A stretch of 64,000 nucleotides of DNA. It comes from Candidatus Saccharimonadota bacterium (GTDB lineage Bacteria; Patescibacteriota; Saccharimonadia; Saccharimonadales; Saccharimonadaceae). Position numbers and translations under genes: made by a program. Below the pieces are notes generated by a model. That model had not been told where the DNA came from. It saw nothing but the letters and a program-made list of their open reading frames with translations, and ran no database searches. Positions within the stretch are counted from its first letter, which is position 1, and every line of letters begins with the position of its first letter. Where the stretch lies: NCBI GenBank assembly GCA_003246575.1, contig QJZZ01000003.1:186001-250000 (forward strand), written 5' to 3'. Positions 55,155 to 60,346 of the stretch are shown piece after piece.

Positions 55155-58100
55155 TCACTTCTTGTTCAGTGCAATTACGAGTTCAGCACCTTCGACGCGA
55201 GCAGTGGTACTATATCCATCTGCATCACCGAATGTGCCAAGGGTTTCAGCAAGAATCGTGTCTTGATGCTCATTGATTGCTTTTTGCAGCTCGTCGTCTT
55301 CCGTCGTGAGAGTGAGGACGATGCGATCATCGACATTGAGGCCAGCGGCCTTTCGCGCCGACTGTACATGACGAATCACTTCGCGCATCATACCCTCACG
55401 CTTCAGCTCAGGCGTTTTGTGCAGTTCTAGAAAAACCATCACACCGTATTTCACGTGCTCTGTCGCCACAGCCTCTTTCATGCCCTCCGCCCATAACGGG
55501 TCTTTTGACTCAAAAATTTGGATACTTTTTACATTAACCTCCTCAGCGATGATATTGAGGTACTCTGGCTCTAAATGAATGCCTCCTATGCGCATCTCAG
55601 CAAGTGGCTGTCGCACTCCATAGCCCTTACCCGCCTCAGCACGCATAGATAGACCAGCGTTAACAATAACCTTAGTAACCTCCATTTTATCCACTGAAAT
55701 CTGGTTAACATGCCCTGCCGACATCCAGTCCTTCAGATGAATTGATTCCGCATCGCCCGTCAAATTATGGTAGAGCTCTTCGGCGAGGAATGGCGTAAAC
55801 GGCGCCAATACATACGCGAGCCGCACCAGCACGTAGTGTAGCGTCCTGTAGGCCATTTCTTTGTCGCCATCGTCCTCAGACTTCCAGAAACGACGTCGAC
55901 TTCGGCGCACATACCAGTTACTGGCATCATCAAGGAATGGCAAAATCGGGTTCATTGCGTCGGGGATATTGTAGCCATCCATGTTCTTCTCGACGTCACT
56001 AATCAACTGGTGCAAACGGCTAATAATCCACACATCGAGTGGGTTCGTGACTTCATCGATTGGGTCCTTGAGATCACCGTCGTATTCCCAACCATCAACT
56101 TCGGCATACATCGTGAAGAAGTCATACATATTCCAAACCATACTGAGCTTGCGAGCAACGTCGCCAACGTCTTTGTCTTGCAACGCAAAGTCCTCGCCAT
56201 TCAGCAGCGGACTCGAGAGAAGCAGAAAACGAAGTGAGTCAGCCGAGAACTTGTCCATGAGCTCGTTCGGATCAGTGAAGTTGCCGTAGCTCTTACTCAT
56301 CTTGCGGCCATCATTACCAGCCACGACGCCTGTTGTGATGACGTTTTTGAATGGACTTGAATCGAAGAGACCAACGCTGATAACGTGCAGATAGTAGAAC
56401 CATGCGCGCACCTGTCCGATGTATTCAGCGATGAAATCACCTGGGAAATTCGCCTCAAACTTTTCTTTATTTTCAAACGGATAGTGGAACTGAGCAAACG
56501 GCATACTACCCGACTCGAACCAGCCATCGAGTACCTTGTCGATACGCGTGTAGTGCACGCCATCTTTATCGAATTCGACATCGTCCACCCATGGGCGGTG
56601 ATAGTCATCAAGGCGCTGCCCACTGAGCTGCTCAAGTTCGTCATAACTACCGACAACGATTTGGTGCTTCTCACCCTTGTCGTCACGTCCTTCCCAGACG
56701 GGCATCGCCGTTGCCCAGAAACGATCGCGTGACAAATTCCAATCCGGCGCCTGTTCCATGTTCTTCTCGAAGCGACCGTGCTTGAGGTGCTCAGGGAACC
56801 AATTGATTTGATCGCCGTTCTTCTCGAGCATTAATTCTTTTTGACCCTGCACGTCGAAGAACCAGCTTGGGTGTGCGCGATACATCAGTTTGGTGCCACA
56901 GCGGTGACAATGCGGGTAGCTGTGGCGAATATACTCAACTTTCCAGACCATGCCACGCTCATGAAGGGTTTTGGCGATCGTTTTGTTGATCTCCCAGACA
57001 TTCTCACCCTTCCATTCGCTCTCGCTGTATAGACCATTTTCGTCAATGATACGCACCACTGGAATACCGTTTTTCTTAGCAAGCTCAAAGTCCTCTTCGC
57101 CATATGCTGGTGCCAAGTGAACAATACCCGTGCCTGACTCTGTCGAGACGTAATCTGCAGCCCAGACCTTAAAGCCGTTCTTAAATGCAGCCATAACATG
57201 ATTCTGTCGCTCTTTGCTATTCTCTACCTCATGATTATGAATTGTCGCACCTTTCGCGTCTCTCTCGCTCTCTTGCACAGAAAAATCAGATACATCACGA
57301 ACCAAGTCTTGAAACAATGGCGCATACTCCTCGCCAACCAGTTCACTACCCTTGAGTGTGCGCACAACTTCGTACGCAAGTGGCTGGTGCTTTTCGTCTT
57401 GAAGCACCGATTCGACGAGGTCTTTGGCAAGGATGAATTGCTCGTCGCCGACCTTAACTTCTACATAGGTAAATTCTTTGTTCACAGCAACCGCTGTGTT
57501 CGCAGGGAGCGTCCACGGCGTCGTCGTCCATGCAAGCAGCGTTGAACCACTCTTGAGCTTAAACTTCACGAACACGCTCGGATCGGTAACATCCTGATAC
57601 GAGCCAGAATCCATTGTCACTTCAGCTTTTGAGAGCGGCGTAGCGTCACGGGTACAGTACATAAGCACACGCTCACCTTCATAGATCTTACCCTTCTCAT
57701 GGAGCGTCTTGAACGCCCACCAAATCGATTCCATGTACTCTTTGTCCATGGTCTTATAGGCATGATCCATATCAACCCAGCGACCGATGCGATCGATCGT
57801 ATCGTTCCAAAGGCCTGACGTCTGAACCATGTTGTCACGAGCCGTCGTAATGTACTCTTCAAGGCTGATCTTGGTGCCGATATCTCGGCGGTCCTTGATA
57901 CCGAGCTTCTTTTCGGTGAAGACCTCTGCCGGCAAACCATGACAGTCCCATCCCCAGACACGCTCGACACGCTTGCCCTTCATCGTCTGATAGCGCGGAA
58001 TCGCATCTTTAACGATACTACTGAGCAATGTTCCGTGGTGTGGCACGCCCGTGATAAATGGAGGGCCGTCATAAAAGACGAAGCTATTGTCTACTGGTCG

Positions 58101-58202
58101 ATTCTCAACCGACTTTTCAAATGTCCTGTCTTGTTTCCAGCGCCGCACCCAATCTTTTTCGTATTCGAGTGCTCGCCTGCGTGTTCCGTGCTTGAATTTC
58201 AC
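55155..58202 (-). CDS. ileS: Isoleucine--tRNA ligase
   Basis: The 1015-residue class I synthetase has WGWDCHGLP, the CP1 editing domain (about 200-400, LAWTTTPWTLPANTAVAV), KMSKS near residue 634 and a C-terminal anticodon-binding region. The first signature is unusual: residues 55-58 are H-H-G-T, so the second His of HxGH is Thr. The start codon is GTG 58202, 7 nt after AAGGAG. Expression should be controlled by the T-box leader. The C-terminal zinc finger of type 1 IleRS is not evident, consistent with the eukaryote-like type 2 group. Confidence 0.96.
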   Translation of the reverse strand: MKFKHGTRRRALEYEKDWVRRWKQDRTFEKSVENRPVDNSFVFYDGPPFITGVPHHGTLLSSIVKDAIPRYQTMKGKRVERVWGWDCHGLPAEVFTEKKLGIKDRRDIGTKISLEEYITTARDNMVQTSGLWNDTIDRIGRWVDMDHAYKTMDKEYMESIWWAFKTLHEKGKIYEGERVLMYCTRDATPLSKAEVTMDSGSYQDVTDPSVFVKFKLKSGSTLLAWTTTPWTLPANTAVAVNKEFTYVEVKVGDEQFILAKDLVESVLQDEKHQPLAYEVVRTLKGSELVGEEYAPLFQDLVRDVSDFSVQESERDAKGATIHNHEVENSKERQNHVMAAFKNGFKVWAADYVSTESGTGIVHLAPAYGEEDFELAKKNGIPVVRIIDENGLYSESEWKGENVWEINKTIAKTLHERGMVWKVEYIRHSYPHCHRCGTKLMYRAHPSWFFDVQGQKELMLEKNGDQINWFPEHLKHGRFEKNMEQAPDWNLSRDRFWATAMPVWEGRDDKGEKHQIVVGSYDELEQLSGQRLDDYHRPWVDDVEFDKDGVHYTRIDKVLDGWFESGSMPFAQFHYPFENKEKFEANFPGDFIAEYIGQVRAWFYYLHVISVGLFDSSPFKNVITTGVVAGNDGRKMSKSYGNFTDPNELMDKFSADSLRFLLLSSPLLNGEDFALQDKDVGDVARKLSMVWNMYDFFTMYAEVDGWEYDGDLKDPIDEVTNPLDVWIISRLHQLISDVEKNMDGYNIPDAMNPILPFLDDASNWYVRRSRRRFWKSEDDGDKEMAYRTLHYVLVRLAYVLAPFTPFLAEELYHNLTGDAESIHLKDWMSAGHVNQISVDKMEVTKVIVNAGLSMRAEAGKGYGVRQPLAEMRIGGIHLEPEYLNIIAEEVNVKSIQIFESKDPLWAEGMKEAVATEHVKYGVMVFLELHKTPELKREGMMREVIRHVQSARKAAGLNVDDRIVLTLTTEDDELQKAINEHQDTILAETLGTFGDADGYSTTARVEGAELVIALNKK

Positions 58203-58208
58203 CGCTTA

Positions 58209-58404
58209 TCTCCTTTTTACCAAAATAAAAATCCCTTTTTCGCCACTGGAACCCGAGATTTCGGGCGGTACCATCCAGTTTCGAAAAAGAGATTCTCTTT
58301 CCGCACTTCGTTATTCGCTTTGTCGCAGCGTTCGCGGCAGGCTCTACTCTCTGATATAGATTTCTTCCTGCGACTCGTGGGTGATAGCCACTCAAACGTC
58401 TTCA
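58209..58404 (-). ncRNA. T-box riboswitch leader of ileS
   Basis: The minus-strand leader has the T-box sequence UGGAUGGUACCGCC (58277-58264). It lies in a bulged helix formed by CUGGA (58278-58274) with UCCAG (58250-58246) plus CCCGA/UCGGG, and UGGU can pair with the ACCA end of uncharged tRNA. A short Stem I is closed by GUCGCAG (58374-58368) and CUGCGAC (58328-58322) and contains AUC-A (58355-58352), a fitting isoleucine specifier. No U-run terminator follows. A Shine-Dalgarno at 58218-58209 can pair with UCUCUUUUU (58292-58284), so control is probably at translation initiation, as in actinobacterial ileS leaders. Confidence 0.85.
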
Positions 58405-58410
58405 GGCTGC

Positions 58411-58416
58411 ATTATA
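58411..58416 (-). promoter_or_regulatory. Extended -10 box of the ileS transcript
   Basis: TGC-TATAAT on the minus strand, placing the transcript start near 58404 and giving a leader of about 200 nt. Confidence 0.65.
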
Positions 58417-58424
58417 GCAAAAGA

Positions 58425-58445
58425 GCGGTGCAATAGCCACACCGC
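58425..58445 (-). terminator. Probable terminator of the DoxX gene
   Basis: GCGGTG (58445-58440 on the minus strand) pairs with CACCGC (58430-58425) around a 9-nt loop and is followed by TCTTTT. It sits between the DoxX stop and the ileS promoter. Confidence 0.6.
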
Positions 58446-58469
58446 CCTTCTATGTAGAAGCCTAGAACT

Positions 58470-59887: not shown

Positions 59888-60346
59888 TTAGGCTTCCTCC
59901 TTCTGGCGACGTTTCTGATCAAGGATCTTCACGAAGTCATCAAGCGTCTGGAATTCATGGAAGACACTCGCGAATCGCACGTAGGCAACTTCATTTGCTT
60001 GAGCAAGCTTGTCAAGGACCACTCCGCCGATCGTCTTTGATGGCACTTCATTTTCACCGAGGTCATAGACACTGTCTTCGATATCATTGATGATTGCGTC
60101 AACTTCCATCTCTGATTTGAAAAACTTACCAACTGACCGATGGATCGAATTACCAAGTTTTTCGCGATCGAAGAGCTCGCGCGTACCGTCTTTTTTGACG
60201 ACAGCGATATTACGACGCTCAATACGCTCGTAGGTCGTAAAACGATGTCCGTCCGATGATTCGCGGCGGCGGCGAATTGCCAGGCCATCAGCAGATTCTC
60301 GTGACTCAAGCACGCGGCTGTCACCAATTGTATAGTTCTGTGGCAC
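59888..60346 (-). CDS. nrdR: NrdR-like ATP-cone repressor without zinc cysteines
   Basis: The 152-residue protein aligns with NrdR: DSRVLESRESADGLAIRRRRE, HRFTTYERIE, then an ATP-cone domain (about 48-138, VVKKDGTRELFDREKL). In normal NrdR the first 35 residues hold four zinc cysteines (MxCPxC and ECxxCGxRF). Here they read MPQNYT and ESSDGHRF, and the whole protein has no Cys. The start is GTG 60346, close to the ftsZ stop. NrdR represses ribonucleotide reductase genes in response to dATP/ATP. Confidence 0.88.
   Translation of the reverse strand: MPQNYTIGDSRVLESRESADGLAIRRRRESSDGHRFTTYERIERRNIAVVKKDGTRELFDREKLGNSIHRSVGKFFKSEMEVDAIINDIEDSVYDLGENEVPSKTIGGVVLDKLAQANEVAYVRFASVFHEFQTLDDFVKILDQKRRQKEEA

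Follow-up and report, generated by a model that had tools for sequence, protein, structure and literature searches.

The ileS locus

The window analysed here is a 64,000-nt stretch of a Saccharibacterial genome. It carries, on the minus strand, a gene whose product matches the isoleucyl-tRNA synthetase family TIGR00392 with 795.5 bits, above the curated cut-off, confirming the preliminary description's placement of a T-box upstream of ileS. The features at this locus, in the order in which they would be transcribed, are the following.

58411..58419, minus: putative extended -10-like promoter element TGC TATAAT (TGCTATAAT), read by eye
58404-58203, minus: T-box leader on ileS, about 200 nt, ahead of the ileS GTG
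58377..58391, minus: ultrashort Stem I, GUGG-CUAUCAC-CCAC, 4 bp, with the AUC specifier (58385-58383) in its apical loop (script and covariation)
58337..58371, minus: Stem II, 58371-58367 with 58341-58337, with S-turn-like purines AAGAA / AGUAGA (covariation)
58316..58337, minus: Stem IIA/B pseudoknot, CG..CG plus CGCU with AGCG (covariation)
58283..58301, minus: Stem III, GAAAGAGA AUC UCUUUUUC, flanked by AAGUG and AA purine strings (arm-swap test)
58232..58292, minus: terminator outer helix, 11 bp, 58292-58282 (UCUCUUUUUCG) with 58242-58232 (CGAAAAAGGGA), enclosing the antiterminator (fold and covariation)
58245..58279, minus: antiterminator, comprising A1 (58279-58274/58250-58245), the bulge UGGUACC (58273-58267) and A2 (58266-58261/58256-58251) (RF00230 alignment)
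58222..58231, minus: U-run UUUUUAUUUU, part of the intrinsic terminator and contiguous with the outer helix at its 3' strand
58208..58215, minus: Shine-Dalgarno sequence (SD) AAGGAGAU of ileS, beyond the terminator, with an unpaired probability of 0.45-1.0 over its eight bases in the full-leader ensemble
55155..58202, minus: ileS, isoleucyl-tRNA synthetase, 1015 aa, GTG start at 58202

With this -10-like element, the leader probably begins immediately 5' of Stem I; a strict -35/-10 scan, which found no promoter, missed the element. Directly 5' of this putative promoter, a hairpin of GGGCGGUG (58447-58440) with CACCGCUC (58430-58423), followed by UUUU (58423-58447, minus), is likely the terminator of the upstream DoxX-like gene. 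The same strand also encodes an NrdR-like regulator (59888-60346, minus) with an ATP-cone domain (PF03477), whose zinc-ribbon region lacks cysteines (..DSRVLESRESADGLAIRRRRESSDGHRFTTYE..) and matches the zinc-ribbon profile PF22811 only from profile position 10.

Identification of the leader as a T-box

At the gathering threshold, Rfam matched nothing in the window. Under relaxed settings the T-box family RF00230 aligned with the leader from end to end, so that the Infernal check proposed in the preliminary description yielded an alignment at E 9.8e-6 and a score, 33.1 bits, below the gathering value of 93 bits; this value is a library threshold and not a biological feature, and the structural features of a T-box are present despite it. 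Running RF00230 over the leader's own genome at E<=1e-3 led to nothing, and the other Rfam matches in the leader (mir-4679, L20 leader, STnc390, mir-187) were rejected as low-scoring chance matches. With our own covariance model (R1), built from 40 leaders, the element scores 141 bits (E 3e-37) and is the sole match at E<=1 in the 931-kb genome. The earlier claim that the control is specific to Ile is supported.

In the RF00230 alignment, helices A1 and A2 flank the UGGN + ACC bulge, as the preliminary description had it, and UGG is invariant among relatives. The genome's own tRNA-Ile(GAU) ends in A73-CCA, complementary to UGGU. On the strength of sequence and its comparison, the leader upstream of ileS in this ultra-small Saccharibacterium is a genuine T-box, a reader of uncharged tRNA.

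The comparison set comprised IleS loci on named Saccharibacterial contigs, together with leaders drawn from 198 sampled genomes of the order. Of 160 distinct leaders, 118 gave a T-box within 450 nt in a pattern search, and R1 finds one at 77/80 named Saccharibacterial ileS loci; the 77 include two loci labelled Pacebacteria with weak scores (L070, L072) and one cut by a contig end (L009), and two of the three ileS loci without a match have no upstream DNA. In about 26 loci the T-box and ileS are separated by a gene or ORF. By eye, the intervening gene (as in L053, L016, L020 and L058) resembles DNA-3-methyladenine glycosylase I (MRCxWAE..YHDxEWG..) in several relatives and GNAT acetyltransferases in others.

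Covariation of the aptamer helices

Aligning ileS leaders across Saccharibacteria, as the preliminary description had suggested, shows that the proposed T-box helices covary: in an unfitted alignment, both-side changes occur in 23 of the 27 aptamer and discriminator pairs, and the paired fraction of cells is 91.5%, compared with 28-42% in slid controls. The compact Stem I with its AUC, proposed earlier at 58391-58377 and 58385-58383, is 100% paired and has changes on both sides in 4/4 pairs (variants include GUGG/CCAC, GCGG/CCGC, GCAG/CUGC and GUGA/UCAC). Most relatives share a 4-bp stem and a 7-nt loop, YNAUCRN; a script placed AUC at the fixed loop position in 102/107 relatives, a count that includes a few wrong hairpin choices. 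The UGA/GA beside Stem I suggests a kink-turn.

All 5 pairs of Stem II change on both sides (93.5% paired), and its TAGA is invariant in the leader alignment; its S-turn is judged solely from conserved sequence. The nested stem of the IIA/B element is 93.3% paired and the pseudoknot arm 61.7%, with both-side changes in 4/4 pairs of the arm (unfitted MAFFT alignment). Stem III is 92.7% paired, its arms pair better with their own partners than when swapped between leaders (-7.7 vs -4.0 kcal/mol, 67/67 leaders), and the purines that flank it (AAGNG..AA) are conserved. A1 and A2 are 98.7% and 95.6% paired, both with both-side changes. With each helix covarying, the aptamer is, by structural criteria, a structural class III T-box.

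A predicted terminator enclosing the antiterminator

The preliminary description reported no U-run terminator, having overlooked the 11-bp outer helix. This helix joins UCUCUUUUUCG, which is the 3' strand of Stem III, to CGAAAAAGGGA, just 3' of the antiterminator; it has a pairing probability of 0.999 in the full-leader ensemble, and UUUUUAUUUU follows at once. A strict terminator scan did not find it because the loop is too large for the scan. The stem adjoining the U-run is A/U-rich.

Among relatives, 10/11 pairs of the outer helix change on both sides, and 92.7% of its positions pair against 43-62% in slid controls. Without any alignment, own strands bind more strongly than strands cross-paired between leaders (-17.3 vs -9.96 kcal/mol in 72/72 leaders, p=1.7e-13). 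Because membership of the "outer" type was itself read off the fold, the fair comparison is that over all 105 leaders without type selection, which gives -14.5 vs -8.3 kcal/mol (p=1.8e-16); the leaders are related by descent, and these p-values overstate their independence. A U-run follows the terminator helix in 104/105 leaders, compared with 8.6% of shuffles, and the gap between helix and U-run is 0 nt in 76/79 outer-type leaders. In minimum-energy folds the strand before the U-run pairs 5' of the antiterminator in 81/112 leaders, mostly with the 3' strand of Stem III, and Stem III overlaps the 5' strand of the outer helix by at least 4 nt in 63/72 leaders. Comparative sequence shows all helices, the specifier, the terminator helix with its U-run, and the overlap of Stem III with the terminator. 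A classical terminator built on the 3' strands of A1 and A2 was rejected for the outer-type leaders, where such pairing does not exceed the chance level (-3.6 vs -3.1 kcal/mol, p=0.28).

Five of the 72 outer-helix leaders lack a clear Stem III. In leaders without a clear Stem III (L025, L038, L046, L126 and L157), AAGUCCC or AAGCYCC beside the pseudoknot can itself pair with GGGGCUU before the U-run.

Proposed switching mechanism and alternatives

We propose, with a probability of roughly 0.82, that the T-box controls ileS by transcription attenuation, through a terminator that competes with Stem III and encloses an intact antiterminator. In the nascent leader, Stem I and Stem II would fold together with the IIA/B pseudoknot, and the AUC specifier would pair with tRNA-Ile(GAU), after which Stem III and the antiterminator would form. 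With uncharged tRNA, the ACCA end would pair with UGGU, and the bound tRNA would lock the purine strings of Stem III onto the antiterminator; the 3' strand of Stem III, UCUCUUUUUCG, would presumably stay occupied, and RNA polymerase would read through into ileS. With charged tRNA, the lock would fail and the CGAAAAAGGGA strand would invade Stem III. The resulting long hairpin, capped by the intact antiterminator, would stand directly before UUUUUAUUUU, where transcription would end. We infer tRNA binding, termination, the direction of switching, and the choice of Stem III rather than A1/A2 as the toggled element.

Computed to the U-run, the OFF fold (outer helix with A1 and A2) has -59.9 kcal/mol and the ON fold (Stem III with A1 and A2) -46.6 kcal/mol. 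As the OFF fold is 13 kcal/mol more stable without tRNA, the switch would have to be kinetic or strongly stabilised by tRNA; as the antiterminator is part of both folds, the mutually exclusive pair is Stem III and the outer helix; and as the antiterminator stays intact in the OFF hairpin, the switch must act via Stem III or sterics. Binding of uncharged tRNA to known T-boxes makes the purines on either side of Stem III latch onto the antiterminator (PMC7583486). By analogy, tRNA may protect Stem III through such a purine latch here, and charging may release it.

The preliminary description had the leader acting on translation, with UCUCUUUUU hiding the SD when tRNA-Ile is charged. The complementarity it noted is present in the window leader (duplex -10.0 kcal/mol), and actinobacterial ileS T-boxes are thought to act by SD sequestration (PMC1262725). 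Across 61 leaders, however, own SD pairing is no better than cross-pairing (-6.66 vs -6.56 kcal/mol, p=0.89), and in the window leader the SD-sequestered fold, at -46.0 kcal/mol, is 24 kcal/mol worse than the minimum-energy fold (-69.9 kcal/mol), with a pairing probability of about 2e-12. The cross-pairing result and this pairing probability speak against sequestration by the proposed strand, and in the roughly 26 relatives with a gene or ORF between T-box and ileS the SD of ileS is out of reach, so that we regard translational control as very improbable. Equally improbable is that the T-box does not switch and that the hairpin formed by the outer helix serves for RNA stability or as a terminator that is fixed and unregulated. 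The much greater stability of the OFF fold would agree with this, but an unregulated terminator before an essential gene would be odd, the specifier, UGGN and Stem III are conserved in an element present at 77/80 loci, and the style of terminator differs between clades while the aptamer stays constant.

A steric ON state deserves more weight, and we nonetheless consider it unlikely: uncharged tRNA on the bulge would block closure of the outer helix, and Stem III would not be a real competitor. It would agree with the intact T-box bulge in the OFF hairpin, and it would suit the 5/72 outer-type leaders without a clear Stem III, some of which use the AAGUCCC purine-string segment as the 5' strand of the terminator. 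Against it, the arms of Stem III covary independently (67/67) and overlap the outer strand in 63/72 leaders.

Two expression platforms in Saccharibacteria

In one clade of relatives (L069-L082), among them isolates from the gut of sheep and horse, the same aptamer precedes the same gene and is joined to a different, textbook-style terminator, whose 5' strand is the 3' strand of A1 (UUCCAAU..AUUGGAAUUUUUUU). Own strands of this classical terminator pair at -9.9 kcal/mol, compared with -6.5 kcal/mol when swapped (23/24), so that the T-boxes of this clade also look transcriptional. Outer-type leaders occur all over the IleS tree, and the classical type forms one nested clade plus L038, for which the classical call is doubtful.

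Relation to known T-boxes

Four T-box classes have been described, of which class III, known from N. farcinica ileS, has a short Stem I and is mostly translational (PMC10482949). The window leader resembles the class III ileS leaders of Nocardia farcinica and Mycobacterium tuberculosis in its short Stem I without an elbow-binding module and its apical Ile specifier, and shares with actinobacterial class III the Stem II with S-turn, the IIA/B pseudoknot, Stem III and a UGGN antiterminator-type helix (PMC10482949, PMC7583486). The earlier suggestion of an actinobacterial-type reduced Stem I in a genome of the candidate phyla radiation (CPR) is thereby supported. The apical loop has 7 nt, compared with the 5-6 reported for class III. 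Actinobacterial class III leaders mostly hide the SD, whereas the window leader has a terminator and no conserved SD sequestrator, a feature that is usual in class III and not obligatory.

With class I (RF00230, e.g. Bacillus subtilis tyrS) the leader would share the opposition of uncharged tRNA to an intrinsic terminator, as well as the 7-nt antiterminator bulge and the Stem III purine strings. In class I, however, Stem I is long and bears an elbow-binding module, where the window leader has a 4-bp Stem I, and the class I terminator reuses the 3' strands of A1 and A2 (PMC7583486), whereas the terminator here keeps A1 and A2 and reuses Stem III. As a general rule, transcriptional T-boxes are said to depend on a long Stem I that carries an elbow-binding module (PMC7583486); our results suggest transcriptional control without this tRNA-gripping arm, against the current generalisation. 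The enclosing terminator, which would "swallow" the antiterminator, offers a testable alternative to the textbook exclusion between antiterminator and terminator, and a tRNA-controlled terminator of this kind may serve as a native expression switch in cultured Saccharibacteria.

T-boxes have been described mainly from Firmicutes and a few other phyla (PMC2494555), and the present results would extend their range to CPR bacteria, a group in which gene regulation has received little study. We found neither a report of T-boxes in Saccharibacteria, Patescibacteria or the CPR nor a description of an expression platform whose terminator encloses the antiterminator in a search of the open-access literature, which does not prove priority.

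T-boxes across the candidate phyla radiation

Applied to 287 Patescibacteria genomes, R1 matched 95 at E<=0.01, comprising 24 of the 25 sampled Saccharimonadia and 71 of about 262 others, a distribution that favours long residence of the T-box in the CPR. We examined 69 R1 loci, a few of them from relatives within the class Saccharimonadia, and most precede aminoacyl-tRNA synthetase genes. Sequence clustering of the downstream genes gave about 30 ileS and 23 valS, and NCBIfam searches with representatives added aspS, lysS, thrS and tyrS. Unlike actinobacterial ileS class III, the ultrashort-Stem-I build is not confined to Ile elsewhere in the CPR, where its reading extends to codons for Val, Asp, Thr, Lys and Tyr. 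In the scripted hairpin, AUC stands in 21/30 ileS and 2/23 valS leaders, and GUC in 0/30 and 19/23, respectively (Fisher p=9e-10; this value is uncorrected for some loci at which, as seen by eye, the automatic Stem I and T-box pickers mis-chose). Individual aspS, thrS and tyrS leaders show GAC, ACC and UAC, respectively. At the fourth position of UGGN, C predominates in aspS leaders and A in thrS leaders, in keeping with G73 of tRNA-Asp and U73 of tRNA-Thr in the one genome examined.

A U-run follows in 60/66 CPR loci with a recognised T-box; 21 of these 66 fold as the outer type, and in 33 the hairpin is classical or lies downstream. The Rfam gathering score was reached by none of 20 CPR loci that bear a T-box, and the short-Stem-I model of TBDB was applied to Actinobacteria and to truncated class I cases that had been detected before (PMC7778990); given this scope and the Rfam threshold, the CPR group would escape routine annotation. 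On balance we lean towards the view that ultrashort-Stem-I T-boxes are an old, multi-specific, transcriptional system of the CPR, and that the Saccharibacterial switch, with a terminator that encloses the antiterminator and competes with Stem III, is new.

One leader (L280:1501-1591) precedes a non-discriminating AspRS (aspartate--tRNA(Asn) ligase) and has an apparent AAC (Asn) specifier instead of GAC, as would suit an enzyme charging both tRNAs. In two other CPR genomes (L236, L245), R1 matches lie before genes for non-synthetases, an NAD(P)H-hydrate dehydratase and an unnamed protein, which may be operon neighbours or false matches.
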